Assembly: GCA_949710005.1 (NCBI GenBank)
Contig: OX453278.1
Location: 6,416,097-6,480,096 of the forward strand
Length of the DNA stretch: 64,000 nt
Reading direction: 5' to 3'
From: Ricordea florida
Taxonomy: Eukaryota > Cnidaria > Anthozoa > Corallimorpharia > Ricordeidae
Shown here: positions 10,591-60,992 of the stretch, piece after piece
Position numbering within the stretch: the stretch's first letter is position 1
How the letters are laid out: every line of letters starts with the position of its first letter
The notes under the pieces: model-generated
The model's database searches: none
Seen by the model: the letters and a program-made list of their open reading frames with translations, nothing else
What the model was told of the DNA's origin: nothing
Translations under genes and position numbers: made by a program

Positions 10591-11160
10591 AGCTAAACCT
10601 TCGTTAAGTGTTCCTTCAAGTACTCTAACAGTGACTAACTTCGCTATCAGCTGCACACAAACTACGGTGTTGCTCTGTTGGTTGTGCGTACCTCAAATTA
10701 TAACTTCGAAACACCTGTTGGCAGCGCATGAATTTCACATTAACACATTTTGTACAAACATTTTGAGATAGCAATATTTCTGTCCGGTTCGTCAGTGTTA
10801 ACCTTTGACGGATTTGAACAATAAAACTTTCTTTTCTTACAAGAACGAAACAGACGTCAAATTTAGCTGTTATCAAGATGCAATCGTGTACCGCTGTCTC
10901 TGAACTTACCTCTTTGCTGCCATAAAATGGCTCTCTATGAGATTCTGATCCATTTTCAATTAAGAATGTATAACAATGGAATTTCTTAATCTTCGGGGTC
11001 TTGTATTTCGCAGGAAAGCAAATTTCTTTATTAATGGTTGAGTTGCATCTTCTAAAGGAACAAATTACCTAGGGTGGCTTTGTTGAGTTAGAAAATAAGG
11101 TCAGAAATAGGGAGAATCGGCGTGCTTTGAAGTTAAAATTAAGGACAGTTCTTAATGTTA

Positions 11161-45030: not shown

Positions 45031-45406
45031 GGGACCTTAAGCAAGGACGACGCCGACGTCAACGAGAACGACTACGAGAAACATAAATTCGCGTTACTGC
45101 AGTGAAATTGCAATTATGCCAACACATTCTCCTTGTGAAACTCATGCCAACTGTGCAGGAATTTATCTTGCATGAACGGCGTTGATGTTATCCGAGTAAA
45201 TTGAACATTTCTCAACTTGTGCTCACGTCCTCCAGAGAACTGTGAATTTAATCCTTTCACGTCGTTGTTTTGGAGAGAACGGCAACGAAATGTACCAAAA
45301 TGCAAAATGCACGTGCGGGGCGTGCAGAGCCATTGTTTTTGCTCATTATGCCTATTGTATTTTTGACGTTCTCGTTACCGTCGACGTCGTCCTTGCTTAA
45401 GGTCCC
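45031..45406. mobile_element. MITE with TA target duplication inside a virion-block gene
   Basis: Terminal inverted repeats GGGACCTTAAGCAAGGACGA and its complement, flanked by TA at 45029-45030 and 45407-45408. Interior ends carry GACGTC-rich blocks. It is more GC-rich than the surrounding viral DNA, which marks it as a host element. Confidence 0.88.
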
Positions 45407-46958
45407 TAATATCGGCGGAGCCGGGCCCACCTTCCAGGTGGATATTATTTTCCTGTTTCATCGAGTCTGTTTTCGTTGAGGTTTTTGGTTCCTGTGGGTT
45501 TTTATTCGTTTCAGTTTTACCTTCCAGGCGAATATGAGGTAATTTTAACTTTGAAGACCCTAAGTTATGACTTATTCCAACTTGTTTTGCTTCAGTGTTT
45601 AGGGAATTATTCACACCAAAATTCATATCATTACTCGCTTTCATAAGTTTGTTATTAAAACCTGTCACGCTTTCAGTATTGATTATCATATTACTCGGCA
45701 TCAACCACACACCAGGAGCAATAGCTAAATCAAGCCGTAATTTCGCTTCTTGTACAGCTAATTGATACCTTTGGATAGAACTAGAAATGTCATTTTCGAT
45801 CACACTACTTTCAAATAAAGCCAAGAATTCTTGTTGTGTCTCTATCGCCCCACCACCATTACCATAAATCGAGTTTCTAGTGTTAACTTGTGCACCCAAT
45901 ATACAGTAAACAAAAGCTTCAGCAGATCGATTCAATCTACCAAGTCCAGCTTTAGTGAGCCCATGTCCGCTTGTTGGGATAAACCAAGCATATTTGAAAT
46001 CAGCAAAGCCATCATTACGTATAAATGAAATGAGATTACCCTTTTCTTTCTTACCTCCTTCATCAGCGAATTTACCGCCTTCACCGGGCCATTGATCTGC
46101 TTCAATATCATAATTCCTTACAATATGTACATTTTGATATCCACCACCTTTTCCATGATATCCTGCACCATAATCAAGGAATATATCTCCCAATCCGTCG
46201 TTTCTACCACCTTTCCATCTAAAGTCTGAGTTTTTTGATATGCTAAATTCTGCACACAATCGTTGATATGCAACTTTACTATATGGATTATTATTTATCA
46301 CAAAAGGTTGCTCATCAGGTAGGGGAATGCTTAATTCATATAATATTCTCCTTATTGTGAAATATATATGAAACTTAATGAAGCTACTTACTACTTTAGG
46401 ATAATTTAGACTTTCAAAAGGACTTACCCCACAACCAGATGTTGCACACCAAACTGCAAAGTTAAGTTGTTGTGGCCAATAATTCATATCAGGGGCGTTC
46501 AACCATTTTCTACTCTGTTTACCAAATTTGAAAGCAACAACTTGTGATGTAAATATGTTTCTCATCTTTGCTGTGAATTTCTTTGTATTTGAAACGTATA
46601 TATCCAGCGAGGTTAGCATTTTTGTTATATCAGTTGAAAAGTCATCAAAATTAACAGCTGGTATTGGATAAGATAGATTAGTTATAGTTAAACTCTTTGG
46701 GAATGAACTCAATTCATCACCATTCAAGTTCTTCGCTTCGCTCAGCCCCAAATCTTTCCATAAAAGTCTTTTCATATTAGGTGATATGTCATCAGTCCAT
46801 GTTTTTCCAGTAGGATCATCATTTGACATTATTGTTGTTCCATCAACTTTCCACTTAATATATCCACCATACGAATCAGGCACAAATGTGAAATGGCTTA
46901 TATCAGCCCTTGGGTACATATTTCTGAAATCATTGAATAATGACATTTTTTTGTTCAT
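45375..46958 (-). CDS. Large conserved Polinton-type protein, C-terminus altered by a MITE
   Basis: 527 residues as it reads now (Met at 46958, or the fifth residue Met at 46946). The N-terminal two thirds contain YWPQQLNFAVWCATSGCG and Gly-rich loops (GAGYHGKGGGYQN); a later segment has WLMPSNMI. There is no known enzymatic motif. Similar proteins accompany capsid genes in cnidarian Polinton-like elements (recollection), so a virion role is inferred. The last ~11 residues (RDLKQGRRRR and flank) are read from the MITE at 45031-45406, which replaces a hydrophobic tail still present at 44949-45028. One GC hairpin (45413-45423) lies within the frame near its end. Confidence 0.72.
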   Translation of the reverse strand: MNKKMSLFNDFRNMYPRADISHFTFVPDSYGGYIKWKVDGTTIMSNDDPTGKTWTDDISPNMKRLLWKDLGLSEAKNLNGDELSSFPKSLTITNLSYPIPAVNFDDFSTDITKMLTSLDIYVSNTKKFTAKMRNIFTSQVVAFKFGKQSRKWLNAPDMNYWPQQLNFAVWCATSGCGVSPFESLNYPKVVSSFIKFHIYFTIRRILYELSIPLPDEQPFVINNNPYSKVAYQRLCAEFSISKNSDFRWKGGRNDGLGDIFLDYGAGYHGKGGGYQNVHIVRNYDIEADQWPGEGGKFADEGGKKEKGNLISFIRNDGFADFKYAWFIPTSGHGLTKAGLGRLNRSAEAFVYCILGAQVNTRNSIYGNGGGAIETQQEFLALFESSVIENDISSSIQRYQLAVQEAKLRLDLAIAPGVWLMPSNMIINTESVTGFNNKLMKASNDMNFGVNNSLNTEAKQVGISHNLGSSKLKLPHIRLEGKTETNKNPQEPKTSTKTDSMKQENNIHLEGGPGSADIRDLKQGRRRR

Positions 46959-47002
46959 AACATGTTGCTGTTAAATCACCTCTTTTCTAATCCAGCTTCG
47001 CT

Positions 47003-47029
47003 CCGCTTCGCGGGGAGGCCCGGAGGGCC
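47003..47029. repeat. Paired GC hairpins (intergenic copy)
   Basis: CCGCTTCGCGG (47003-47013) and GGCCCGGAGGGCC (47017-47029): two perfect hairpins with 3-nt loops, three bases apart. The same pairing occurs inside the capsid and integrase genes. Confidence 0.9.
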
Positions 47030-47099
47030 GATGGGGAGGACTCCGTCCGATACCCAGCAAAACAATTAAATCCCACATCAGTTCTTTCATATGAAATTT

Positions 47100-47696
47100 T
47101 CAGTGTTCTCGACCGGCCAGTTCCTTTAATATTTCCGCTCGAACCTCTGTTCTTATCTGATTCATATTTAAGTTTTTTTCTGTATCTTTCTGAGTTTTTT
47201 GGCGGATTTCTAGTTTTAGTTTTTCAAACTTGTCCACCTCTGATAAAATTAACGAAAATTCTTGGTCGGATATAGCGTTATCTTTTAGGGCCTTTGAAAC
47301 CAAGTCGTGAATGGTATTTACTTTTGCTTTTGCTAGAGAAACTGTTTGTTCATGTTTACTAACTTTATGTGAAAGTCTTTTAGAAGCAGCACCGAATCCA
47401 ACTGATATTCCCCCACAAATACCTCCAACCGCTCCTAATGGGATACCAACAACGGCACCAAAACCAGTAAGGGAGGTTCCAAGTCCACTTGCAGATAGAA
47501 TAACTGAAATCACCCCACTACAAACACTGATTTTTGTAAATATACCTCTCGCTCGATTATACTTTTTTCTAACTTCCTCATAATGTTTAATTTCCTTCTC
47601 AAGATTTTGAAGCACTTCACATGACTTTTGTAGTCTGAAATTAACTGGATCAACATTATTTGGCAATCGTGGATAAATTCTATTATAGTCTTCCAT
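47100..47696 (-). CDS. Helical protein with central hydrophobic Gly-rich segment
   Basis: The open frame starts at 47714, but a Met at 47696 is preferred because the TTTAAAG-type box (47703-47724) overlaps the earlier Met. About 198 residues: an N-terminal coiled region, then residues ~50-110 very hydrophobic and Gly/Ala-rich (two or three membrane-like helices), then a charged helical C-terminus. This plan (helix, glycine-rich membrane core, helix) is common in cnidarian and fish Polinton-like elements. Function is unknown; membrane interaction or entry is a guess. It lies immediately upstream of the 527-residue gene on the same strand. Confidence 0.68.
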   Translation of the reverse strand: MEDYNRIYPRLPNNVDPVNFRLQKSCEVLQNLEKEIKHYEEVRKKYNRARGIFTKISVCSGVISVILSASGLGTSLTGFGAVVGIPLGAVGGICGGISVGFGAASKRLSHKVSKHEQTVSLAKAKVNTIHDLVSKALKDNAISDQEFSLILSEVDKFEKLKLEIRQKTQKDTEKNLNMNQIRTEVRAEILKELAGREH

Positions 47697-47702
47697 TTTG
47701 AA

Positions 47703-47724
47703 AATCATGAGCAAAGCTTTAAAT
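47703..47724 (-). promoter_or_regulatory. TTTAAAG-type upstream box
   Basis: On the minus strand, TTTAAAGCTTTGCTCATGAT lies just before the preferred start at 47696. It matches the boxes before the starts at 49353, 56550 and 57093 in spacing and pattern. Confidence 0.5.
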
Positions 47725-48091
47725 GAATTCGAAAATGTTCGTTATTTAAGTCAGCCTTTCTTCCCTTTTCATCTAAAATAAACAAATCAAAGTAGTTGAT
47801 CGGATTTTTGGTTTGTAAAACTTTTAAACAAGGATGCTTATTAGATGGAATAACAGCTAGTAGTTGTGATGGTTTAAGTTCTACATTTTCACCTTCGGGG
47901 ATACAACAATTGGAATATGAAGACTTTGACTCTATAAGATCACACATTAAGTAAAAAGGATTACTAGACGACGCTTTAGGAATGTGACTAAATAGCATTT
48001 GTATCTCTTTTACTTGGGTTAAGGGTGGATCCAGATAAATTCTTGTTTTGGGAGTTAGCATATAGATAGATAGAAACGTTGTCTCATTCAT
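47705..48091 (-). CDS. Shorter paralogue of the 44048-44683 virion-block protein
   Basis: 128 residues. It shares RIYLDPPL near the N-terminus, then LMCDLIESKSSYSN, LKPSQLLAVIPS and YFDLFILDE with the 211-residue protein, but lacks the central region. Its stop lies about 10 nt upstream of the preferred start of the next gene, and its own start lies 9 nt after the stop of the coiled-coil gene, so the three are tightly packed and probably co-expressed. Either a genuine short paralogue or an internally deleted duplicate; the frame is intact. Confidence 0.62.
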   Translation of the reverse strand: MNETTFLSIYMLTPKTRIYLDPPLTQVKEIQMLFSHIPKASSSNPFYLMCDLIESKSSYSNCCIPEGENVELKPSQLLAVIPSNKHPCLKVLQTKNPINYFDLFILDEKGRKADLNNEHFRIHLKLCS

Positions 48092-48099
48092 GTTTTTAC

Positions 48100-49353
48100 T
48101 TAGTGCCTCTTCTTTTTAAACTGTTCCACAAAATATAGAACCACAGCCATTATCAACAACCAAGCATTCTTACCTAAAAAGCCAATCACCTCGCCCGCTG
48201 TTTTGAACAGAAAGCTTACAATCGCACCAACCATCCCTGGTAATATTTCACCGAGTTTCTTACCAATAGCTTTAAACCCATTACCAACACCTTTACCTAA
48301 TGTGGATAGGCCTTTAGAAAGATTAGAAACTATAACACCAATAACCACCCCTACAGCACTTACAACTGCAAATACTGTAAAACCATACTTTTTGAAGATA
48401 GCCTTCACACGTTCTCGTAATGGTAGATTTTTAAGTATTTCTTCATTTTTACTCTCCAGATCAGCTATTTGTTCTTGGTTGTAAATAATACTCTTTCTTG
48501 TTAGTTCTCTAAATTTATCAACTTCAGCTTGTAATCTTTCATTACCACGTTCTAACATTGTTAAATTTGACTGTCCCTTCTTATACTTATCTATTTCATC
48601 TTTGTATCGATTCAATTCAACTTTAAGTTTTTCAACCTCTGTTTTAGCTACAACCTTCTGTTCTTCAGCCACATCTAAATAGCTTTCAATTTCGGCAATT
48701 CTGGTTTGTTGTTTTTCAATTATTTCTCTCAACTCTTTTCTATCAATTGTAACATATTGTTCTATCTCCTTTTCACCTGTTTCTATAAAGGCTCTTAAAC
48801 CTTCTAACGCGTTATGTAAATCCTTAATTTTTTTATTAGCTTCATTCAACTGCAATGCTGTATTATAATTTCTTGAAATAAGTGTTTCATAATCACCACC
48901 AATCTCTTTTAATATAGTGTTTGGTAAACCTTTAGTGTTTATTTTCCCATTTTTATCAATCAATATGTGAGGCTTAGCATTACGTCTATTACTCAACATC
49001 ACATTTGTATTTCCTTCACTATCAAAAAATGCTGTAAACGAGGCTTCAAAAGGTTTAAATTCAGGGAAAAAACTTTTTATATATTGCAACGCTTCCATCC
49101 TATTTTCATATTGCTCATCTTTTTCTTTCTGTTCCTCTAATTCTATTTCTTCACTTTGTAATTTAGTATATCCTGATTTTGTTTTAGGTCTAGCACCCTC
49201 ATCCTCATAATTCCTATCACCTCTGGTTGTAGATGTTACTCGAACTTTTTTTTGTGATGGCTTTCTACCAAGTAGTGAACTTTTTTCATCAAAATCATCA
49301 GGATTTTCTTCTTCCCCCAATCCAATGGGATCATCTTCTGGTAATTCTTCCAT
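48100..49353 (-). CDS. Coiled-coil protein with C-terminal membrane helices
   Basis: 417 residues. Residues 1-80 are acidic and disordered. About 85-130 form a globular segment (IKSFFPEFKPFEA). About 165-310 are long heptad-rich coiled coil. The last ~100 residues hold a basic patch (RERVKAIFKKYG), two or three hydrophobic Gly/Val-rich helices and a final membrane helix ending in KKKRH. This architecture recurs beside capsid genes in Polinton-like elements of cnidarians and fish (recollection). A membrane-anchored or minor virion protein is plausible. The start follows a well-formed TTTAAAG-type box at 49361-49385. Confidence 0.72.
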   Translation of the reverse strand: MEELPEDDPIGLGEEENPDDFDEKSSLLGRKPSQKKVRVTSTTRGDRNYEDEGARPKTKSGYTKLQSEEIELEEQKEKDEQYENRMEALQYIKSFFPEFKPFEASFTAFFDSEGNTNVMLSNRRNAKPHILIDKNGKINTKGLPNTILKEIGGDYETLISRNYNTALQLNEANKKIKDLHNALEGLRAFIETGEKEIEQYVTIDRKELREIIEKQQTRIAEIESYLDVAEEQKVVAKTEVEKLKVELNRYKDEIDKYKKGQSNLTMLERGNERLQAEVDKFRELTRKSIIYNQEQIADLESKNEEILKNLPLRERVKAIFKKYGFTVFAVVSAVGVVIGVIVSNLSKGLSTLGKGVGNGFKAIGKKLGEILPGMVGAIVSFLFKTAGEVIGFLGKNAWLLIMAVVLYFVEQFKKKRH

Positions 49354-49360
49354 GATTTTT

Positions 49361-49385
49361 TACTAATCAGTAAGAAATCTTTAGA
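49361..49385 (-). promoter_or_regulatory. TTTAAAG-type upstream box
   Basis: The minus strand reads TCTAAAGATTTCTTACTGAT, ending a few bases before the start at 49353. The box is nearly identical to those at 56561 and 57101. Confidence 0.65.
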
Positions 49386-50846
49386 CCCTTTAGGGCCGCG
49401 AAGCTGGAGCCCTCCCGACAAAGTCGAGCAAACTAATCACATACAATTACCTAAAAGAATTTACTTACCATATAACCTAATGCCAACATACCACCACCTA
49501 CATATACCATTTCACCCATCTTTTGATTGTTACTAGGTTTATAATAGTTAGAGAATTTTGGTTCATGTGTCTCACTATACAATTTCAAAGCTTCATCTGT
49601 ATTCGAAATATTTTTTGATGCCTGATATTTTACATCCTTTTGTTGTACTTTCCAATCAATTAGTTTCTGTCTATTTTCTTGATATTCTGCATAATCTTTT
49701 TGATATTTTTCTATTGCCTTATCGTGTCGTATTCGTTCTGCATCTGTTTTATCACCTGAGAGATATTTTGCAAGATATGATCACTAGACCAAAAGCCACA
49801 TTTTAATCACATTTAAGTTGCATTAAACAACCCTAGAACTTGGGTCTACATTTAAGTCTAGTTTAATTGTTTAAAACATCACTTAAATCAATGCTATTGT
49901 CATAGTGGGGTTTAAGTGCCCCTGAAACATACATTATACACCTGAAGCCATTTAAGTTCCTTAAATGGAGATTAAACATTCTCTAAATTAATGGTTGTGT
50001 TTTGGTTCACATAAATGACTATTTATTGATATATAACAGGAATAGTAAGAATTATAATTGTCCAGTGTGTAACATCACTGTGCACTTCATTGCTCAAGTA
50101 TCTTCAAATTGTCTCTTTTCTCCATAACAGAATCAGAACACCAAAACATGAAAGCAACGTAAAAATGTCTTGACATTTTGAACTCAGTTCAATAAAAAAG
50201 TAATATAATTTTAAAAAAATATCATCAAGAAGAAAAATGACCATATTTCACTAATCACACTAAGACAAGTGTATTAAGAAACTTTAATTTTATCCGTATA
50301 TGTAGTTTCCATGTCCACAGTCATGTACCCTTATTAGCTTATGCATCAAAATTTTGATACAGTGTATATATGTTGTCAAGTAACCACAATGTACAAATGT
50401 GTCAATCTCCAAATCGAAAGACAATGTAAGATGGAACAGAACGATATTTTTACACTTACACAACATTTGCATCAACATTAACACCTGATCTAACAAGTAG
50501 CATATGACAATTTGCAAAAGTGGTGTGAACTGTCAATCAAAAGTAGTCATTTGTATATGCACTTTCCTATGTACCAATTTATTTCAGCTGGTTAAACCTA
50601 AGTTTGTATGCAATCCGTAGTGCCACAGTACTGTTAAGAAAATACTGGTGCCTTCAGAACTCAAATACTGTCCAGTCATATCATAATAAAAATTATTTTT
50701 TCAGAGAAAAAAAGAGAAATAAGGAGAACGTTTGCTTCAATGATACAGTCTCTTCTTAGCTAAGAACCCTATCAATGATTTAATCTAAATCTGTAAAATG
50801 CCAGCACGACGAGGTATAGGGCAAACTGCCATAAGTTTGGCATTAC

Positions 50847-51041
50847 CTAGAGAAAGATAAGCTGCAGTAAAGAGGCTGTGGATTCTGTGCACTTTAGCGA
50901 TTGAGATGAACATTTCGTTTTTGTGTGACGGCGATACGAAGATGAATGTGCGAAGGACTTTCCGCAAGTTTCACACTTATCACAGAAGAAAGGGCTTGGA
51001 GTGTTTTCGACGAAACTTGTTTCAGGATAATCTTCGGCCAT
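50847..51041 (-). CDS. C2HC zinc-finger exon, possible remnant of a transposase gene
   Basis: From the Met at 51041 the frame encodes about 64 residues with C-x2-C, an aromatic, and H-x4-C in CETCGKSFAHSSSYRRHTKTKC order. This fits a single CCHC-type zinc finger. It is transcribed away from the five-exon gene, with a ~280-bp putative bidirectional promoter between them. Only one finger and no catalytic domain are visible, so it may be the first exon of a transposase whose remainder has been deleted. A frame this short could also be chance outside the finger. Confidence 0.45.
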   Translation of the reverse strand: MAEDYPETSFVENTPSPFFCDKCETCGKSFAHSSSYRRHTKTKCSSQSLKCTESTASLLQLIFL

Positions 51042-51323
51042 TTTGTTGATTATCAAAGACGGAAACCGCAATCGGTAATGATTGATTTGCGTCACGAGCC
51101 ATGAATGGCCCTATTGTTATCCCAAGCAATTTGCATTTGGTTTTTCTGCTTCATTGCAATTGGTTGGTTTTCGATAGTAAGCCAATCAGAAAGTGAGAGT
51201 GTCGGTCGCGGGATGTATGTTTCATGTAGTTAGCGTCATTTAGAAGTTCGCATTCCAGCTTCGTTCCTTGCCGTGTGCTCGCTCGTGTTTTACAGTTAGT
51301 TACACTTCACTTTTCCGGTAACG

Positions 51324-54300
51324 ATGACTGCACTAGGTGCTCAACAGGAACGACAGCTTCTTCTGATTGAAAGGATGAGCGGTAAAATGGATGCGATTTG
51401 CGACAGTCAAAAGAGACTCCAGGATGCCAATGCAAGCCTGCGACAGGAGAACGAAAGACTAAGAGACGAATTACAAAAGAAGGAGAAGCAGGGCAACCGA
51501 CGTGGTTTGAGAAATTCACGGCGGAGTTCTACAGTTGAAATTCCAAATGAACTAAGGGTGAGTAGATCTTTTTGTTTTCGTGGAGCAACTTCAGAATACC
51601 CGTCCACTCATTTACATGTGTCGGGGGCTTTTGAAGAACGAGGTATATCACAATGGACTCTTTTGTTATTCATCAGTATGTAAATAAGTGGACGGGTATT
51701 CTGGAGTCTGACGCCATTTCATTTACTTCTTTTTGTTGAAGCAAAACATTGTATGCTAGATGAATTCGAAGTAAAAAGACGAGTACCTATTATTATTAGT
51801 TAGTATACCTATTACTTCGTGTGTGGGCGCATGAAGCTCGAACGTGGTGGTGAGTTAACTTTAGTGTGGGGACGAAGTGACTGGTTTTCAATTTGCATCG
51901 TGTACTCAAGCCACAGCTGTGCGTGTATGAGGGCCATGAGACGGCGATCTTTTCAGTTTTGTTGAAAATCTTTTCAATCTTAGCTTCAGTAAAGATCTTT
52001 TAATCAAAGATTTTAATCTCCTCAAAAACCACAAAAACTCAAGTTCATTTCTTAATATAATTATGCCCCGTACTCATTGCACTTGTTTAGAGAGGGCTTT
52101 GCGGTAAGATTTCCGCACAGGTCCCTACTTCATTATGCATTCTGTAACTATACTATTTCGTTCTTCGAACACAAGAAATATTTGCACGTGAATTACACCA
52201 GACAAGACAGCTTCCGCATGCATAATGAGTAGGGACCTGTGCGGAAATCATTCCGCGCGACTACACCAGGAATAATGAAGTATGGGGTTTAATAGGGAAT
52301 TCTTGCCCTTTTTACAGTGTTTGATTCGATATCTGAGAAGCAGTCTAGTAATACAGGAAAGTGGTTGCATTATCTTCCTTATGCGCGACAATATGTAATT
52401 AGCATCGTGAGGAGCAGTTGTTCCGACCTGTAACCTCAAAAACTTCATTAATTCTTGCACTGATTTTGTATTATCACGCTCTTGCAGAAACGGTTTCGAT
52501 TTATTTACAAGAAGTTGGTGGAAAAGAAGATGTTAAAGGGCTTCATTGTTGATGAGGAGTATGTATTCAATTTCCTTTTACATTATCAGAGCCATGATCA
52601 GTAATTTAGAGATGAACCAAGGCACTTTCCTTTGTCATTTTTTCCTTATTTCCTGTACAACATTTAACATGCTATTGTTTTAAATTTAGTGGAAATTGGG
52701 ATCTTGATGACTTCTGGGGCTATATAAAACACAGAATGTTTGTAAAATAATACTGATCCCATTGCTGTCATCATAAACACCCCAATTATTTAGAAATAGA
52801 ATTTAACCAATTTACATTGCCTCATTTTTTTCTGGTTACATTCTTGGTTGTAGATATAAACACTGAGGACATTTCCTTATTTCCAAATAATTTGACTCAA
52901 GAGTGCGGTGGTGGGCATGTATTTTAAGGTGCTCGGTATTCAGCGATAAATTGTCTAAACAACACTAGTACTTATAACTGGTCTGGGAGCTCTACTACTA
53001 CAGCAAATGAGAAACATGCTGATGCTGGAGCTGGCTACTTAAATTAGTGGTCCTAGCTGGTGGTGTCCACTATAGGTTTATTAGAATTTGTCCATGCACA
53101 AGCGTATAGGTTGTTTTGAGTTTTTGTTGGGTAGGCATTTGTAGAACCGGCTGCTTATGGAAATTTCCATGGGAACCTATATTCCAGAGAGTTAATGTTA
53201 TGTGCTCCACTTAAAGCACAGTCTGTGATGATTGTATTGCATGACCTTAAGTTTTGTTAAATAATTTTAAATATGCTGTTTTTTCTTTTAAGTCCATCGT
53301 CTGAGGGAAACCAGATTGTTTTTACCCAAATTAAAGAAATTTTGAGGAAAGAACATGGTGGCGAAAACTGTCCTTGGACTGAATTACAAATGGAAGGTTT
53401 GTACATTATTTTATTCTGTTCAAAGCTTATTGAGAGATAATATTGTGTGGTGCAAATGTCTTTGTTGAATCAAAACCCAAAGTGTTTTAAAACTGTAGGA
53501 TTCCATTTTATATAAATCCTAGGGAGCACGATTTATTTGATATAATTGTTAATTGATAATTTTTCAACAGCCCAGTTTTGTCGCTATTTCACTACAATAC
53601 GGGAAAGGGACTTGAGGATCAGGACAGGCAAAAATAAAGAACACAAAGAAAAATGCAAAAAGAACAGACGGCTGTTAACTGTGAGTCTAGAAATATATTC
53701 ATTTAATTGATTATTGCATTTTGTAGTAATTATAATTTGTGTGTCAAATTGTTTTAACCATAAAAATGTATCTATTGAGCTGAGGGCTGATAGTTCCTTT
53801 GTCTGAACAATTTGCATTTTGATCCTACTGGGATGTTCAAATGTCCTGCCTGTTTCCATGCTTATAACAGTGTGCACGTAATGTATGGTTCTGAGGGAAA
53901 GTTTCATGAGAGTCCTGATGTTTCCTGAGATGAAGTCGAGGGAAACTTTAGGACCCAGAGGAAAACAAAACTAATCGTTATATACCTAGACTTTCACTCA
54001 ACAAAATGAGCACTGTGATTGGTCGATTGTTGATCACATGCCCCCGATCAAATTTAAATGTGTATTACAGGAAAAATTAACAAAGATGATACAACTGGCA
54101 CACAGACAAAATTCTAATATTTGGATTTATGTTTTGATATTTAGACGCTTATGGTACCGTAGATATGAATTTTTTTGACTAGCTTTTATATTATAAAGAT
54201 TAAGAAAAGTTGGAGAATTCGGACTTCTTAAAGTTCTTATTATTTAAATTTTCAACCCTGCTTTCAGAAATTATCACAAAAAAATATGCAATATAGCAAA

Positions 54301-54473
54301 CAGGTTATTCTTACCCTTGGACTCTCAATGTTTGACAAGTAAATAATTATCCTTGGTATATTTACACATTTGTTGGTTTGGAGAATTTTGTAGGTTAATT
54401 CAGTATTAAAGTGTTGATAATTGTAATGATGTTTATGATATGATGCTTAACCCTTTCACTCCCAAGAGTGACT

Positions 54474-54518
<45 letters not shown>

Positions 54519-54587
54519 ATGGAGACCCCTTGGGAGTGAAAGGGTTAAAAACTATCTCCCTTAACCCTTTCACTCCCAAGAGTGACT

Positions 54588-54632
<45 letters not shown>

Positions 54633-54694
54633 ATGGAGACCCCTTGGGAGTGAAAGGGTTAATGATGATATGATATTAATGTCAGCTGCATTGC

Positions 54695-54738
<44 letters not shown>

Positions 54739-55439
54739 ATGGAGACCCCTTGGGAGTGAAAGGGTTAATGATGATATGATATTAATGTCAGCTGCATTGC
54801 CATAAATTTTCTATCTTATCAAAAAGCTCCTTATAACTTTTAGAGTCAGGGGGTTGGGTAAAAATGAATCACAAACTCATACAATTGAAGGAGTATTAAT
54901 TGAACCTTGGATTAAGCACCTAGAGTGAATCAGGCTTTTTTTTCTTTGCTTTGAGCAATTATTGTTTTTTTCAATGTAGCAATCATCATTTCCTCTTGTA
55001 CTTCTTCTTATGACTTAACTTGCAGCTTCCTTTATTTATTCTCAATTGATTTAATATCATTCTCTGTTAGAAACTGGAAAGACGGAATCGTGCATTTGAG
55101 TTGGTTCAATCAAGCATGACAGCAACACAACGGCAGTGTGCTAGTGAGGTCCTGTTTATTGACTACATGAGCAGTGAGGAGTCAGATTATGATGAGATAG
55201 AGGACCCCATTACAGGAGAAAAGCAGAGAAAACTTGCAAGATACCATAAAAAAAGGTTGCCATGGGAAAGGTCAAGCCTAAAAAACTTGAAACAAAAGTT
55301 GGATCGCGCATACCATGACAGCCTGTCATTGCATGCTAGAGCCATGTCCAAGGCCAGAGAGGTGCATGGTGTGTCAACAAGACCAGCACCTGAAGGTCCA
55401 GCTTGGGCTGTTAGACAGATTGATACTGTTTATTCTTAG
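51324..55439 (+). CDS. Five-exon transposon-borne coiled-coil protein
   Basis: Exons 51324-51557, 52488-52558, 53293-53396, 53571-53680 and 55071-55439 join without a stop, in consistent phases (0, 2, 1, 0), all with GT-AG borders; total 295 residues. Residues ~5-55 form a leucine-zipper-like coiled coil, followed by a basic patch (RRGLRNSRRSS). The middle is a Lys-rich helical region. The C-terminal third has an acidic EESDYDEIED run, a KKRLPWERSSLK motif and a final PAPEGPAWAV block. No catalytic domain is visible. It lies wholly within the CACTA-like element. En/Spm elements often encode a second, DNA-binding, non-catalytic protein; a similar role is inferred. The intact frame suggests recent selection or recent insertion. 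Confidence 0.75.
51591..51704. repeat. Inverted repeat in intron 1 of the transposon gene
   Basis: TCAGAATACCCGTCCACTCA and onwards at 51591-51618 is mirrored at 51677-51704. The insert is ~58 bp. It may be a tiny foldback element. Confidence 0.7.
52108..52250. repeat. Inverted repeat in intron 1 of the transposon gene
   Basis: GATTTCCGCACAGGTCCCTA and the following ~15 bp are mirrored at 52213-52250. There is no coding content. Confidence 0.7.
54447..54662. mobile_element. Dimeric 102-bp MITE, second copy
   Basis: Two 102-bp units (54447-54548, 54561-54662) and a 12-nt linker. This is the reverse complement of 1452-1667; I see no difference in the compared unit. It lies in the last intron of the transposon-borne gene, so it is nested inside the CACTA-like element, itself inside the Polinton-like element. 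Confidence 0.88.
54663..54799. repeat. Local tandem duplication including part of the MITE
   Basis: A ~105-bp segment is repeated. The flank TGATGATATGATATTAATGT and onwards occurs at 54663 and 54768, and the right-hand ~70 bp of the MITE unit recurs between them (54697-54767). Confidence 0.75.
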
Positions 55440-56331
55440 GCCAATGGATCTCATGCTACTTTAAATGAGACCTTTTTTTCACACAGCAGACAATTGGCTC
55501 TACTGTAAAAAATGCTACCAAAAAAGCAGTGTACTTTTAGATATTTTTAGTCACAACATTGTGAAACATTTTTCATATGTAAAGATTTATGACATGTAGG
55601 TCTTACTTAATTGAATAAAAAAAATGTTTTTCTTAATAAAAGGTATTTTTAATATAATCAAACAAGTGTACTGCAAGTGTTGGGTGGGTTTGCTGCAAAG
55701 CAACAACAACTAAGACAACAGCAAATGAAATATACACTGTACATGTAACGACCAAGTAAAAAACACCACTGTTTATGAAGGAATACATTTGGTGGGTGAC
55801 TTAAAACATGCTTATGAAATGAATATGGCCAAAAAGATATAGTTGAACCCTCTAAAATTAAATATAATTATGATCATTTAATTACCCTAAAACATGACTT
55901 TTACACACATTTAGAATGTGTTTAAGTTTCTAATTAAACATAACGTAAACGTCAGAAGATATTTTGGTTGTATTTAATGCTCACTTAAACATACATTAAG
56001 CTTTAGCCTTAAGGGTGTTTAAGGCGGGTTTAAGGTGAAATTAAACATATTTTTAAGTTCTTAAACCTCTAATTAAATGTAGTAAACATAAGTTTAAGCC
56101 AAGATTAATTTCAGTTTAAGTCTGCTTAAATGTTCTTTTTCTCCTTGTGGATCCACCAACAAAGGCGGTTGCATTCAAAATAGCTCCTCCAAACATCATT
56201 GCTATTGTTGCCATGTTTCCGCGTAGCGGGTAGGTCTTTAGACCGTTTCTTCGCTTCGCTCATGTCTATAAATCCTTAATTTGAGGTTCCTCCCCTTTAG
56301 GTCGGTAAAATCGATCGAAGATCGGCCCCGG

Positions 56332-56550
56332 CTACGCCGGTAAAATCTTTTGATCCTCTAAATATGTTTTTAGGTACATACTACCTGACAATACAGCCAC
56401 CCATTTAGCATAATTTGTAATACTTGAGGATGGGTCGTTCATAAATGATTCTTTCATGGCCTTTTTAGCTACATAGCCAACAGCAGCTGCTAACCCAATA
56501 AGTACTGCTGAATCAGTAACAGTTTTCACAAGTTTGTTTTCATTTGACAT
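56332..56550 (-). CDS. Small membrane protein of the virion block
   Basis: 72 residues with a hydrophobic Ala/Gly/Leu segment at about 14-28 and a second at about 47-60, separated by a short polar loop. No known domain. It lies 118 bp before the split gene on the same strand, with a well-formed TTTAAAG-type box at 56561-56583. A GC hairpin (56328-56340) covers its last codons. Small hydrophobic proteins of this kind are common in the capsid blocks of Polinton-like elements (recollection). Confidence 0.6.
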   Translation of the reverse strand: MSNENKLVKTVTDSAVLIGLAAAVGYVAKKAMKESFMNDPSSSITNYAKWVAVLSGSMYLKTYLEDQKILPA

Positions 56551-56560
56551 AATTATTTAC

Positions 56561-56583
56561 TGTATCAGTAAGAAACCTTTAAA
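56561..56583 (-). promoter_or_regulatory. TTTAAAG-type upstream box
   Basis: The minus strand reads TTTAAAGGTTTCTTACTGAT, about 10 bases before the start at 56550. Confidence 0.65.
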
Positions 56584-56619
56584 TCGGCTTTGCCGGCCAG
56601 CTACGCTGAAATCGCTTAC

Positions 56620-57093
56620 TCATATCATTCCCATTTTTGGCGGTTGTGGTTGGGTGGGGATATTCAGCGGAGCTGGTCCTACAGATCTTGTGGGCGGAAC
56701 ATTAGTTGGAACTTGAGATAAATCTACTATTCTATTTTTATTATCCTCCTTTTCAGCGGAGCTGGTCCTACGGATTTGTCGGTATCTCATAAACATGTCA
56801 AATGCTGTAAACCCTATTCCTACAATAGATAAAACGGTTGTAAAAGATAGTTCTGGAAGCCATGCTTTAGACTCACCATCTTCATTGGAATTTTGCTCTT
56901 CTTCCTGTTTCATTTGCTCCTCAGCTCGCAGGGTCTCTCTAGCTAATGCTTCTTTTGCTTTTTTATTATATTCAGCTAATTTCTTACCTGCTGCTACTTT
57001 TTTAGGATCTTTCTCCCTCTTTTTAGAAGTATTACCTTCAGTTTTTTCTTTTGGTTGGTCTCTAGTAATTTGTTCAACAACTTCTTCGGACAT
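56620..57093 (-). CDS. Basic protein with one membrane helix, virion block
   Basis: The open frame begins at 57108, but the Met at 57093 is preferred because the upstream box lies at 57101-57123. About 157 residues: an acidic start, then a strongly basic region (KKREKDPKKVAAGKKLAEYN), a charged helix, a single hydrophobic segment (TTVLSIVGIGFTAFDMFM) and a Pro-rich tail. Two GC hairpins with identical stems CAGC-GGA-GCTG (56665-56675, 56754-56764) lie within the frame and encode short Ala/Pro/Ser inserts. Function is unknown. The basic stretch could contact DNA in the particle (inference). Confidence 0.65.
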   Translation of the reverse strand: MSEEVVEQITRDQPKEKTEGNTSKKREKDPKKVAAGKKLAEYNKKAKEALARETLRAEEQMKQEEEQNSNEDGESKAWLPELSFTTVLSIVGIGFTAFDMFMRYRQIRRTSSAEKEDNKNRIVDLSQVPTNVPPTRSVGPAPLNIPTQPQPPKMGMI

Positions 57094-57100
57094 TATTTTA

Positions 57101-57123
57101 CATATCATTAAGAAATCTTTAGA
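57101..57123 (-). promoter_or_regulatory. TTTAAAG-type upstream box
   Basis: The minus strand reads TCTAAAGATTTCTTAATGAT, directly before the preferred start at 57093. Confidence 0.65.
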
Positions 57124-57192
57124 CCCCTTTAGGGCCGCGAATCGGGCGGAGCCCTCCCCGACAAAGTCGGAGCAAATAACATCATATCATAC

Positions 57193-57864
57193 TTAGTAAA
57201 CAGTATCATACCCAGCAGCAGCTTGGTTAGTAGCCTGCTCAGTTTTGTTGGAATCATCTATATTTTTACTTGTAACTTGTTGTATTTCTGCTCGAAGAGC
57301 AGGCCCAGCTTCGCTGATTTTACCTATTTTAACATGTTTAGCAACCTGAAATAGCCCGCTAGCAAGTGCTGCCAATCTTCCTGCTTTCAATGCTAAGAGC
57401 CCTACAATGTTTGTCAGTTCGCGATTAACCAAGTCATCATTCTTTAAATCCACACAAAGAGCTTCTATATCATCTACTGGAACCATGTAAGAAATAACTT
57501 TAGAAATTAATTGAAGAGATGAATCTACTAACCCACCATTAATTTTCTTACCTAATACTGCCTGATATCGATTATAATATTTTTCAATGTCTTTTACTGA
57601 TAATTTTTTTATATCACCAAGACTCATATCAACCCCTAAATATTCCTTTGTGGTTCCAAGAGCTGCGAGGATGGCTAGTGATTCTTGTTTTTCGGCTACG
57701 CCGGTCTTTAGACTTATTTCAACTTCATTATCATCTTTTACCTCATCTTTTACATCACTAATATAATCTTCAACTTCTGTCATCTTTTGTGATAATACAT
57801 GGATTCTTTTTAAATCGGCTTTGTCGGTCCGAATGAAATCACTTAAGGGATCTCCAAATAACAT
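57193..57864 (-). CDS. Helical virion-block protein, unknown function
   Basis: The frame opens at 57891, but the Met at 57864 (MLFGDPLSDF) is a better start; it then overlaps the end of the ATPase gene by 22 nt. About 223 residues, mostly helical, with a central conserved-looking stretch (LGVDMSLGDIKKLSVKDIEKYYNRYQ) and a hydrophobic Leu/Ala-rich segment near the C-terminus. It resembles a protein found just downstream of the ATPase in other cnidarian Polinton-like elements (recollection). Hairpins at 57290-57300, 57306-57316 and 57693-57703, plus a near-hairpin at 57816, fall inside the frame without breaking it. Confidence 0.66.
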   Translation of the reverse strand: MLFGDPLSDFIRTDKADLKRIHVLSQKMTEVEDYISDVKDEVKDDNEVEISLKTGVAEKQESLAILAALGTTKEYLGVDMSLGDIKKLSVKDIEKYYNRYQAVLGKKINGGLVDSSLQLISKVISYMVPVDDIEALCVDLKNDDLVNRELTNIVGLLALKAGRLAALASGLFQVAKHVKIGKISEAGPALRAEIQQVTSKNIDDSNKTEQATNQAAAGYDTVY

Positions 57865-58460
57865 TGGAATGGATAACGTAAACATAAACAAAGCCTAGAA
57901 TATTTTTCAGTTTTCAGGAGTTGTACAAACTTTTTACTAGTTTCAGGGTCTAAATCACCCCCATAATCTTCAAAAAACATCTTCATACCTTTTTGTGATG
58001 GGTTATGGAAAGTAACAACACAAGCTACATTTTCACGGAATGGTTTTGCTATTGAAGTTAATTGCTGAGTGAGAACCCACATTGATAATCCATGATGTCT
58101 TCCAGAGAATGCTAAATCAATAAACTTGTTCGATCTTTTCTTCAGATCACTCGAAACAGCACAATCATCTAAAATTATTAGTGTATTTGTTCCAGAAAAT
58201 AAAGTTTGACAATCAGTTAGTAACTCATTAATCTCATCAATGTTACTAGAATCTGGCGATAATACAAAGAAACGTTTATCTCCTCGAGCAAAATTATGAT
58301 AAGTTTTATTCTTAGAATAAGTTGGGCATATTAAAACAATGTAATCAAAAATTTTTAGGAATGGTCCTCGAAGCTGTTCAATGAGATATTTTGTTTTCCC
58401 ACAATTTGTTGGGCCTGTTATAATGCAGTGAAAAGGAATTTTATCTCGTAATTCTTCCAT
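57843..58460 (-). CDS. Packaging ATPase (FtsK/HerA-type, Polinton family)
   Basis: 205 residues. Walker A is GPTNCGKT (residues 16-23). Walker B is LIILDDC (94-100) with paired Asp. A downstream sensor-like SMWVLTQQ and a Arg-His-rich GRHHG segment fit the A32/HerA packaging ATPases of Polintons, adintoviruses and virophages. These pump DNA into the preformed capsid. The gene lies directly downstream of the capsid gene on the same strand, as is usual. Length is near the family norm. No break is visible. Confidence 0.9.
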   Translation of the reverse strand: MEELRDKIPFHCIITGPTNCGKTKYLIEQLRGPFLKIFDYIVLICPTYSKNKTYHNFARGDKRFFVLSPDSSNIDEINELLTDCQTLFSGTNTLIILDDCAVSSDLKKRSNKFIDLAFSGRHHGLSMWVLTQQLTSIAKPFRENVACVVTFHNPSQKGMKMFFEDYGGDLDPETSKKFVQLLKTEKYSRLCLCLRYPFQCYLEIP

Positions 58461-58500
58461 GATTTTTTTGTATCATAACATAAGGTTTTTTAAGTCGCTT

Positions 58501-58527
58501 CCAGCTTCGCTGGGGAGGGCTCCGCCC
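58501..58527. repeat. Paired GC hairpins (intergenic copy)
   Basis: CCAGCTTCGCTGG (58501-58513) and GGGCTCCGCCC (58517-58527), each a perfect stem with a 3-nt loop, between the capsid and ATPase genes. Confidence 0.9.
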
Positions 58528-58547
58528 GATCGCGGGCCCGGAGGGTT

Positions 58548-59846
58548 TTAGTACATGATTGATCTTAAGTTTGAATTCATAACCTCCATTAACGCATCAG
58601 CTACAACAAACATGTAACAAGTCATAATACCAGACCCACTAACTTTTCTTTTAATTTCTATTTTTACACCATCTTGTGCATTGTTTAAGGCTAGACCTCC
58701 TCCATGAATATCTTTATCTGGGTGGGTTCTCAAATCTATCCACAGAGCAAACTTTTTATTATAAAAATCCTTTTCCTTTACCGACCATCGAGCAAAGCTC
58801 TCCCCGGCGAACGGCCCGAAGGGCCTAGCCGCGAAGCGGAAGCCGGAACGGGAGGAACCAAATCGTTTCTTTACCGACTCCCAGAGGTCTGAAGGTACCA
58901 TCCCCTTAGAGTAGAAACGATTTGGCACACCATTAACATCGATATTGATTGAGGTGATACCTGGATTGAAAAAATTCTCAGAATCTCGTGCTCCTCCACC
59001 ATATGGTACTGTAAACAAACATAATATCCCTGTAATTGACCTTCTAGGTAGATTAATATGCTGGTTTATAACACTGTCTGTAGGTCTGGATATGGTGAAA
59101 GTTTTGTGTAGAGTGACATTCTCATAAAAGAATCCCTTACCAACCTGATAAGCCGCTTGTGCCTCACGAGCTAAGTATTCGCTTGATATGCAAGAATATT
59201 CCAACTCAAGGTTTGTGATTTTATAAGTTGGAGTCTTGGCCGTATCAGAATAAACAACAATATCGTTAACTGGAGCTAGTGTAATCTCAAAGATTAGTTG
59301 ATGATCTAATGCCTTTGGGTAGAAAACTCCATGATCGTTGAGAATAGGATGGTTTAGTAGGATATTATACTTGGTGTTGTGTACTACTGCAAGAGCTACT
59401 TCCTTCGCATCTGTGTCTACCTTATCACCCGCATTTGTCCTGAGTTTCCTCATGTTTTCAGAAGAAATACCCTGTCTTAATCTATCCTCACGTTCTTCAT
59501 CTGTTAAGAATAAGTCATGGTATGTTTGAAATAGATCGTATCTTTGAGTATCCTGTAGTGTTTCACCACCAAAAAGAACCCTGAGTCTGGATACAAGATT
59601 ACTACCTACATTATTCACAAGGGTGTTATCTTCATGACCATCAACAGCCAGGTTAAATACTAGAGATACACTTCCTGGTACAATCACTAAATTTTCAGAA
59701 AGTTTAGGAATATTTATATATAGTGTTTCTCCAGGATTAGCTGATGATGGGTTTAGTGTAATTCTATTCAATGTTGATTCCGCTTTCAAACCGAGTGGCT
59801 CTCTTGGAATCCTGTTTGGATTAATTTTTTCAGATACGGTTGTCAT
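58548..59846 (-). CDS. Major capsid protein, double jelly-roll (Polinton/adintovirus type)
   Basis: 432 residues. The beta-rich pattern matches double jelly-roll capsid proteins: an N-terminal strand region with PGETLYINIPKL, DHQLIFEITLAPVND in the middle, and a C-terminal signature FALWIDLRTH...GSGIMTCYMFVVADALMEV. Such proteins form the trimeric capsomers of icosahedral particles. An unusual Arg/Phe/Gly-rich run (about residues 330-350) is encoded by paired GC hairpins at 58813-58825 and 58829-58839 and looks like an in-frame insert. The gene starts 33 bp from the divergent integrase start. Apart from that insert the frame is intact. Confidence 0.9.
   Translation of the reverse strand: MTTVSEKINPNRIPREPLGLKAESTLNRITLNPSSANPGETLYINIPKLSENLVIVPGSVSLVFNLAVDGHEDNTLVNNVGSNLVSRLRVLFGGETLQDTQRYDLFQTYHDLFLTDEEREDRLRQGISSENMRKLRTNAGDKVDTDAKEVALAVVHNTKYNILLNHPILNDHGVFYPKALDHQLIFEITLAPVNDIVVYSDTAKTPTYKITNLELEYSCISSEYLAREAQAAYQVGKGFFYENVTLHKTFTISRPTDSVINQHINLPRRSITGILCLFTVPYGGGARDSENFFNPGITSINIDVNGVPNRFYSKGMVPSDLWESVKKRFGSSRSGFRFAARPFGPFAGESFARWSVKEKDFYNKKFALWIDLRTHPDKDIHGGGLALNNAQDGVKIEIKRKVSGSGIMTCYMFVVADALMEVMNSNLRSIMY
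58813..58839. repeat. Paired GC hairpins inside the capsid gene
   Basis: GGCCCGAAGGGCC (58813-58825) and CCGCGAAGCGG (58829-58839), in a ~60-bp GC-rich block flanked by AT-rich coding sequence. Confidence 0.92.
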
Positions 59847-59879
59847 ATTTATTTTAAGGAAGGGAGGAGTAATCTTTAA
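59847..59879. promoter_or_regulatory. Divergent intergenic region, capsid/integrase
   Basis: Only 33 bp separate the two start codons. The plus strand has a GGAAGGGAGGAG purine run and ATCTTTAAA next to the integrase ATG. Read on the minus strand that is the TTTAAAGAT box in front of the capsid gene, so part of each promoter must overlap the other gene. Confidence 0.6.
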
Positions 59880-60992
59880 ATGAGTTCTACCTTATCAAAA
59901 AATTTCAGTAGGATATATTATTCAACTGGGGGATATTGGAAAGGGTATTCTGCAATTCCTAAATTAGCTGAAAAGGCGAAAGTAAGTGAAGATGTAGCAA
60001 AACAATGGTTACAAAAACAGGCAATATGGCAAATATATCTTCCACCTCCAAAGTATATTCCTAGACCGCACTGGACTGTGGATAAACCTAATCAGATTCA
60101 CCAAGCGGATTTATTATTTTTACCACATGATAGAGTTGGAAGAAAAACATATAAATACGCATTAGTTGTGGTTGATGTTGCCTCAAGATATAAAGATGCT
60201 GAACCATTAACCTCAAAAGAAAGTCGGGAAATTTCAAATGCTTTTGAAAAAATATATTCTAGAAAAATAGACCGCGAATCGGGCAACGCCCTCCCACGAA
60301 CGGCCCGTAGGGCCTCCCCGCTCCGCGGAAGTGAAGCGAAAATGAAATATCCTAAAACATTAATGGTTGATCCTGGAAGAGAATTTATGGGTGATGTGAC
60401 AAAACTTATGAATTACCATAACGTAAAAATACAGAGAAGTGAAGCTGGAAATCATAGAGCTCAGGCATTTGTTGAAAGTGCAAACAAAATATTGGGTGAA
60501 AAATTATTTAGTCATCAATATGCACAAGAAATGGTCGGCATAGCCGGGCCTTTAGGTTTAGGAACTGAAAGGTCTAGAGTATGGGTGAAACGATTACCAC
60601 ATATTCTAAAAACTTTGAATAATACACCAACGAGAATAACTGGTAAAGAGCCTGATAAAGCTATAAAAATGAAAGAGGTAGATATTGAACCAAAAAACTA
60701 CCAACGTGTGGTGGGCCTTGATGAGGTTAGATTACCTCCTTTTGTTAGAGTTAGATATTTATTATCTCCTGGGGAACTTGAAGGTGGTGAAAAAAGGCGA
60801 GCCACAGATCCTATTTGGAGTATCAAAGTTTATAATATTACGCGTAACGTTGTTTCACCTAATCAACCAGTTTTATATCATATCCAACAAGAGGGCGGGC
60901 AAGATGGTCCTAGACGAGGATTTGTAAGGGAAGAATTGCAGGTTATTCCTTATGATACTGAGTTACCTCCAGATTCTGTTTTGGAAAGATAA
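59880..60992 (+). CDS. Retrovirus-type DDE integrase (Polinton family)
   Basis: 370 residues. The N-terminal ~60 residues form a helix-turn-helix-like region. The catalytic core has Asp77 in HQADLLFLP, Asp164 in VDPGREF and Glu199 in FVESANK, the spacing expected of a D,D35E core. The C-terminal domain is beta-rich and ends EELQVIPYD. It would insert the element into host DNA. A ~22-residue segment between residues ~130 and 154 is encoded by GC hairpins at 60302-60314 and 60318-60328, just before the second catalytic Asp; a smaller one (60536-60546) lies after the Glu. Both look like in-frame inserts. The last 50 bp overlap the 3' end of the polymerase gene on the other strand. Confidence 0.88.
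   Translation: MSSTLSKNFSRIYYSTGGYWKGYSAIPKLAEKAKVSEDVAKQWLQKQAIWQIYLPPPKYIPRPHWTVDKPNQIHQADLLFLPHDRVGRKTYKYALVVVDVASRYKDAEPLTSKESREISNAFEKIYSRKIDRESGNALPRTARRASPLRGSEAKMKYPKTLMVDPGREFMGDVTKLMNYHNVKIQRSEAGNHRAQAFVESANKILGEKLFSHQYAQEMVGIAGPLGLGTERSRVWVKRLPHILKTLNNTPTRITGKEPDKAIKMKEVDIEPKNYQRVVGLDEVRLPPFVRVRYLLSPGELEGGEKRRATDPIWSIKVYNITRNVVSPNQPVLYHIQQEGGQDGPRRGFVREELQVIPYDTELPPDSVLER
60302..60328. repeat. Paired GC hairpins inside the integrase gene
   Basis: GGCCCGTAGGGCC (60302-60314) and CCGCTCCGCGG (60318-60328), within a ~70-bp GC-rich block. The pairing and spacing match the intergenic copy at 47003-47029 (inverse order) and the capsid copy. Confidence 0.92.

Follow-up and report, generated by a model that had tools for sequence, protein, structure and literature searches.

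What are the short GC-rich hairpins that lie scattered through a Polinton-like element in the genome of the corallimorpharian Ricordea florida? The locus lies in a window of 64,000 nucleotides, the whole stretch of DNA that was analysed (contig OX453278.1 of assembly GCA_949710005.1, positions 6,416,097 to 6,480,096 of the forward strand; the assembly comprises 538 Mb in 48 contigs). An initial annotation had noticed the hairpins, likened them to mitochondrial double-hairpin elements and to the palindromic elements of Rickettsia, and offered mobile cassettes, nicking or recombination sites and RNA-processing signals as possible explanations. Our analyses indicate that they are probably very small non-autonomous mobile elements, carried by a large Polinton family of one animal genome. 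That the units are mobile we regard as very likely, because there are exact filled and empty alleles, unit sizes recur, the ends of one class (class I, below) are near-constant, the same unit or composite is found at different sites, and the stems change compensatorily.

Defining a hairpin as a perfect stem of 4 bp or more, with a GC content of 80% or higher, around a loop of exactly 3 nt, our scan detected 26 hairpins in the whole window, with 17 within 45413-60546. These do stand out, as had been claimed: the part holding the element (42501-64000) has 17 against a mean of 0.42 and a maximum of 3 in 100 dinucleotide shuffles, and shuffling inside 200-base blocks yields a mean of 0.96 and a maximum of 4 (100 shuffles). 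In the same part, loops of 2 and 4-12 nt give 0-5 matches against means of 0.30-0.75 (20 shuffles each), the loop-5 counts being in part the 3-nt-loop hairpins again with the inner pair dropped. Lowering the GC limit to 60% gives 31 hairpins, some of which are probably due to chance. A C-G pair closes all 17 loops, 16 of which read R-N-A or the complement T-N-Y, and 13 GNA or TNC; the loop list first proposed (GAA, GTA, GGA, AAA, ATA) was right as to loop length and incomplete as to sequence. The annotated pairing of hairpins is likewise borne out. Double hairpins of any composition number 15 in the element against a shuffle mean of 4.72 and a maximum of 10 (100 shuffles); by reading, 11 of the 15 are GC-rich, and nine of these 11 have a spacer of exactly 3 nt. 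Their scatter extends across 45413-60546 as described, except that the double-hairpin scan of the element found none in 49801-56200. This interval, which holds few long open reading frames (ORFs) and has Polinton genes on either side, looks like another insertion into this Polinton copy; at 54410-54673 it contains a short coding-like repeat in two tandem copies. Against the specificity of the signal, the host part of the window (1-42000) also exceeds its shuffles, with 9 hairpins versus 2.6. Loops of 2 and 4-12 nt are similarly in excess there (6-11 versus about 2-3.3), and only four of the nine hairpins keep the C-closed R-N-A/T-N-Y rule.

Comparison among copies of the element bears directly on mobility. 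The genome holds at least 97 close copies of the capsid gene, with identities of at least 91%; 95 of the 98 matched rows are free of stops and three have one stop each (97 copies, in 98 rows, were scored among 6201 first-look candidates, and 111 integrase candidates among 5481). The Polinton family is thus unusually large and fresh. In a set of 70 of these capsid-region copies (L001 is the window copy; locus L069 includes 522 N), we called 282 GC-rich triloop hairpins, 120 of them distinct by place and sequence, and 98 of the 120 have a C-G-closed loop of the R-N-A or T-N-Y type. The 64 double hairpins with a 3-nt spacer fall into 18 site groups, each filled in between 1 and 22 of the 70 copies, and the empty alleles are exact and join cleanly. 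Related copies do not share the same GC segments at the same positions, and shuffled sequence does not reproduce the hairpin count, so neither outcome that would have refuted the initial annotation was observed. The presence or absence of units at exact positions upholds the suggestion of mobile cassettes. A functional explanation, in which selection maintains the hairpins as terminators, mRNA end or processing signals or nicking sites, could draw on the several units that lie between same-strand genes, and units may be put to such uses after arrival. However, occupancy by a minority of copies, occurrence in both orientations and inside ORFs, and in-frame placement in capsid and integrase genes make it barely credible, and lend no support to the RNA-processing or nicking role that had been suggested.

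The units fall into two classes, both of which occur in coding and non-coding DNA, with both orientations seen. Class I has stems of 4+5 or 5+4 bp, usually a GGA spacer, and a 27-nt core followed by GAT or GTT, for a net gain of 30 nt; class II has 10 bp of stem in all, usually a GCC or GGC spacer, a 29-nt core, A/T direct repeats of up to 4 nt, and a net gain of 33 nt. When gaps between near copies were called regardless of hairpins (1158 in total, 251 by place and length), gaps of 30 nt occurred at 18 places with a hairpin in 13, those of 33 nt at 13 places with a hairpin in 11, and those of 27 nt at 12 places with a hairpin in nine; gaps of 12 and 15 nt, at 13 places each, held none. This spectrum, with its share of hairpins, identifies 27, 30 and 33 nt as the double-hairpin sizes, the shorter gap classes comprising both single hairpins and other variation in coding sequence. 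On the GGA strand, T precedes class I units at 14 of 15 sites and is matched by GAT after 11 and GTT after three, although the exception is a poor fit to the model and one composite accounts for two of the 15 sites. Class II gaps show the 4-nt repeats ATAT, AAAT and AATT at three sites. A potential alternative is that no dedicated enzyme is involved, and that polymerases stall at hairpins and switch template, or nuclease-resistant fragments prime or ligate at 1-4 shared bases. Variable short direct repeats (0-4 nt), insertion into triloops, and the occurrence of short variants of 12-24 nt, single hairpins among them, are in keeping with this, while the fixed unit sizes and the constant T/GWT ends of class I argue for a precise choice of ends, and we consider it rather unlikely.

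The hairpin features and genes of the window are given below in window coordinates; the left half of the element was read in the window copy alone ("window only").

45413..45441, unstranded: class II double hairpin CGGC GGA GCCG, spacer GGC, CCACCT TCC AGGTGG, in the 3' part of ORF 45375-46958; window only.
47003..47032, + strand: class I double hairpin CCGC TTC GCGG, GGA, GGCCC GGA GGGCC followed by GAT, intergenic; window only.
47038..47048, unstranded: single hairpin GGAC TCC GTCC, adjoining the 47003..47032 unit.
56219..56247, + strand: class I unit CCGC GTA GCGG, GTA, GGTC TTTA GACC followed by GTT, the second hairpin having the loop TTTA; window only.
56312..56340, unstranded: double hairpin CGATC GAA GATCG, spacer GCC, CCGGC TAC GCCGG; window only.
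56585..56608, unstranded: double hairpin CGGC TTT GCCG, 2-nt spacer GC, CAGC TAC GCTG; window only.
57141..57170, - strand: class I unit CCGAC TTT GTCGG, GGA, GGGC TCC GCCC, GAT, intergenic; first hairpin in 1 of 70 copies (the window's own).
57288..57316, unstranded: class II unit inside ORF 57196-57891, with AAAT on either side (33-nt gap plus 4-nt repeat); site filled in 9 of 70 copies by hairpin call.
57693..57713, unstranded: double hairpin without spacer, CGGC TAC GCCG, GTC TTTA GAC, inside ORF 57196-57891; site filled in 6 of 70 copies, this hairpin in 4 of 70.
57843..58460, - strand: packaging ATPase gene (Pox_A32).
58501..58530, + strand: class I unit CCAGC TTC GCTGG, GGA, GGGC TCC GCCC, GAT, in the spacer between the major capsid protein (MCP) and ATPase genes; whole unit in 2 of 70 copies, first hairpin in 3 of 70.
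58548..59846, - strand: MCP gene, double jelly-roll fold.
58787..58846, - strand: a pair of class I units of 30 nt each, one nested in the other, that keeps the capsid gene in frame; the outer unit is CCGGC TTC GCCGG, GGA, GAGC TTT GCTC, GAT.
58813-58839: inner capsid-gene unit, in the first triloop of the outer unit; 3 of 70 copies.
59880..60992, + strand: rve integrase gene.
60266..60340, - strand: 75-nt in-frame cassette in the integrase gene, of three levels: an 18-nt single hairpin, a 27-nt unit and a 30-nt class I unit (core 60302-60328).
60536..60546, unstranded: hairpin CGGC ATA GCCG, part of an insertion of 24 nt in the integrase gene; present in 2 of 70 copies, each of which is +24 nt.
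60943..63873, - strand: 976-aa ORF with an Endonuclease_7 domain (Pfam, E 4.5e-5).

Individual sites illustrate how cleanly filled and empty states differ, and how units accumulate. Near 60582 in the integrase gene, six copies carry +30 nt, 63 carry 0 and one carries +1, and L047, one of the six filled copies, holds a different unit at the same place. At 60347 the difference is 0 nt in 55 copies, +18 in 14 and +75 in the window copy, and we read the 75 nt as 18 + 27 + 30 nt nested loop within loop. A simple unit is common in the capsid gene, with a second unit inside its first triloop in L001, L012 and L020. At 58813-58839 in these three copies, one hairpin has the loop TTC in one copy and GAA in the others, as if loops were flipped by small inversions. 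A nested composite, CACTT[unit]GTTCGTG..., is found three times in the integrase gene, each time at another site: in the window, near the integrase start in L030, and in L062. The non-coding MCP-ATPase spacer measures 30 nt when empty and 60 nt when filled, with many other lengths besides; since the 30-nt quantum is seen here too, unit size belongs to the unit itself and is not just the outcome of frame selection. In L049 and others, units in this spacer are piled stepwise to 153 nt, versus 25 nt elsewhere. A search of longer loops for units inside them showed no peak at unit lengths, and the case for nesting consequently rests on the direct comparison of alleles.

The stems vary in a manner expected of sequences retained for their structure more than their letters. 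When the anchors were kept clear of the pairs under test, 47 of 54 free stem pairs proved to be Watson-Crick for alpha (two G-T, five mismatched) and 22 of 24 for beta, and the pair types differ from site to site, that is, the changes are compensatory. Among 30 distinct double hairpins, 56 of the 60 loops are R-N-A or T-N-Y and 42 are GNA or TNC, and the order is a purine-type then a pyrimidine-type loop in 16, the reverse in three, two alike in seven and other in four. Loops of the form C(GNA)G show extraordinary stability in single-stranded DNA, Yoshizawa 1994 reportedly having worked on d(GCGAAGC). For such mini-hairpins, great thermal stability and resistance to nucleases are described in single-stranded DNA (PMC10527192). 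As RNA, too, the units fold, which would suit a route in which a reverse transcriptase turns hairpin transcripts back into DNA, a mechanism put forward for yeast GC clusters and suspected for GC42 (PMC4478555). No poly(A) trace and no match to a reverse transcriptase in the 15 element ORFs were found, and the loops obey a rule known for DNA hairpins, so that an RNA route appears quite improbable. Beyond the aligned copies, the sequence of one alpha unit has 219 matches in the genome at up to two mismatches (114 forward, 105 reverse), with none for the control. Exact matches of it number 54, of which 20 have a listed capsid match at a distance of 20 kb or less, and seven more were found by eye near an integrase match, six within 1.6 kb and one at 8.6 kb.

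The encoded proteins, too, show signs of insertion. The capsid block at the hairpin cluster 58787-58846 is absent from all 120 aligned homologs (two of which, P0067 and P0108, are gapped or cut short at that block), and capsid residues 332-351 are disordered in the structure model, with a predicted local distance difference test score (pLDDT) below 50. The integrase carries its own block of 25 residues, and related integrases from the database (P0121, P0123, P0130, P0132 and others) have other blocks in other places. Back-translation allows a GC-rich double hairpin in five of eight insert peptides (two being the window's own), compared with one in 600 random 30-aa windows, and allows none in the other three. 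Taken relative to the window's gene borders, gene length is a multiple of three in 67 of 70 copies for the capsid, 63 of 70 for the integrase and 58 of 70 for the ATPase, while the lengths of the MCP-ATPase spacer are spread as 32, 21 and 17 over the three remainders. Reading frames survive these insertions because the unit length is a multiple of three.

Several results weigh against the mobile-element interpretation. Gaps of 18 and of 21 nt match those of 30 nt in frequency, with 19 places each and a hairpin in four and six of them respectively. Direct repeats at the hairpin feet are weak in class I, the best being 0 nt at nine of 14 sites, 1 nt at two and 3 nt at three, and in class II they are 0 at three of eight sites and 4 nt at two of eight, in a count for which the foot position is off by one base for some units. 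The available DNA energy set shows no triloop preference, so the stability argument is drawn from the literature, and a genomic context was assigned for only 27 of the 54 exact matches, among the capsid and integrase candidates scored. Filled states are furthermore scattered on the capsid tree nearly as much as shuffled ones, with 10, 4, 11 and 9 changes at four sites versus 12.1, 5.9, 13.8 and 9.6 under shuffling (identity over the capsid core columns averages 92.7%, range 87.4-99.9%). Units are repeatedly inserted, or recombine between copies, or both, and parsimony on this tree did not separate the two; recombination may move units as much as transposition does. The same scatter is in keeping with hairpins that are old sequence deleted in most copies, or exchanged by recombination only. 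However, empty joins are clean, the majority of sites have only a few filled copies, an identical unit and an identical composite occur at different sites and in both orientations, units sit within the intact triloops of others, and the capsid block is missing throughout the homologs. We therefore regard loss or exchange without transposition as very improbable.

The carrier itself has hallmark genes of a Polinton: an rve integrase, an A32-type ATPase, and a double jelly-roll capsid protein (structure model with pLDDT 84.5) that has PDB matches to the PBCV-1 capsid 6ncl (E 4e-16) and mavirus 6g45 (E 2.4e-12). The 976-aa ORF is probably the Polinton polymerase, which in this kind of element is a protein-primed type B DNA polymerase, judging from its place and length and without a polymerase match: Endonuclease_7 was its sole Pfam match, with none in PDB sequences or NCBIfam. 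Nucleases of the Endonuclease_7 type act on branched DNA, and the ORF is a candidate for hairpin cutting, although the domain may be common in such polymerases. The right end of the Polinton appears to lie beyond the window, and the host flank contains single-exon ORFs for rhodopsin-type G-protein-coupled receptors (GPCRs) at 9742-10656 and 14213-15322, which mark the host as an animal. Scans of IMG/VR viral contigs with the capsid protein, an integrase alignment, a capsid alignment and one hairpin pattern found no relative.

How might the units move? For Polintons, the presumed mode of replication is protein-primed strand displacement. This, together with a unit made up of two hairpins only, borders that coincide with hairpin feet, and T and GAT/GTT ends that recall single-strand transposition, suggests a folded single DNA strand as the moving form, to which we would give a little less than an even chance. 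Strand-displacement replication would release a single strand that folds as two very stable mini-hairpins; some nuclease, ligase or transposase would cut this folded strand at the feet of its hairpins and join it to a site after a T; and new sites would thereby be occupied in both orientations, in and between genes, and in the triloops of older units. A more specific form of the mobile-element interpretation invokes an HUH/Y1 transposase acting in trans, like the enzymes of IS200/IS605 or TnpA_REP, with the hairpins serving as ends, a cut after T, and no duplication. The two small end hairpins, insertion 3' of a fixed T, the fixed GAT/GTT right end and the lack of a constant duplication agree with such an enzyme. 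Repetitive extragenic palindromes (REP) and IS200-IS605 ends are likewise small single-stranded-DNA hairpins, of 20-65 nt, inserted beside a short fixed sequence and sometimes in frame in genes (PMC6006769). Yet the REP guide GTAG/GTGG (0-2 nt 5' of the foot) is absent at 14 of 15 class I sites, class II has 4-nt repeats, and the host is eukaryotic. It counts against the mobile-element interpretation at large that no HUH/Y1 transposase was found among the 15 element ORFs (Pfam, E 0.1), the host genome not having been searched for one, and no transposase other than the rve integrase was matched in these ORFs. An HUH/Y1 enzyme seems unlikely.

Several known kinds of hairpin element come close. 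The double-hairpin elements (DHE) of Allomyces and other fungal mitochondrial DNA and the Repetitive Hairpin-forming Elements (RHE) of sponge mitochondrial DNA are likewise GC-rich, with two (or three) hairpins per putatively mobile unit (PMC5910586, PMC2800124), and vary in number and place between near relatives, much as presence is sporadic at homologous positions here. Sponge hairpin elements occur in protein genes as well (PMC7813641). In contrast to DHE and RHE, the present units occur in contigs of nuclear type, next to GPCR genes and within Polinton genes (the mitochondrial DNA of the host itself was not searched), they have exact 3-nt loops, a 3-nt spacer and a 30/33-nt unit, and their stems change compensatorily, whereas the sponge RHE paper describes changes mainly in loops. 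GC clusters of yeast mitochondrial DNA, such as GC42, are also short GC-rich hairpins in AT-rich DNA, filled or empty between strains and merging into larger clusters, but GC42 is 42 nt long, has AG as a putative target duplication and resides in an organelle, while class I is preceded by T, followed by GAT or GTT, and housed in a nuclear virus-like element; the mechanism of organelle mobile hairpins is still open (PMC4478555). The palindromic elements of Rickettsia are similarly mobile and fused in frame into conserved protein genes, yet they are bacterial, measure 105-146 bp against 30/33 nt here, and have long stem-loops and 12-bp terminal repeats (PMC2229807). Miniature inverted-repeat transposable elements have terminal inverted repeats and a constant target duplication; here class II has 4-nt repeats at three sites and class I has repeats of 0-3 nt. 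None of the mitochondrial, Rickettsia and REP systems is matched in all defining features, and a literature search limited to titles and the openings of abstracts, with few subscription journals covered, found no report of hairpin cassettes in Polintons.

New beyond the initial annotation are the spacer of 3 nt, the unit of 30/33 nt, the nesting and the compensatory changes in the stems, and together they describe behaviour like that of organelle hairpins in a virus-like element of which this genome has at least 97 close copies. Because there are many exact filled and empty pairs, near-fixed ends and a readable order of nesting, the mechanism is testable. We suggest, tentatively and as something that may well prove otherwise, that these units are among the smallest classes of mobile DNA: a folded strand of about 30 nt, cut at its feet and pasted after a T, with structure selected more than sequence. 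They are also a source of in-frame variation in two proteins, capsid and integrase, of a lineage of eukaryotic DNA viruses. If the moving form is indeed a folded strand of this kind, a length that is a multiple of three would let the units colonise capsid and integrase genes and vary the loops of their proteins.

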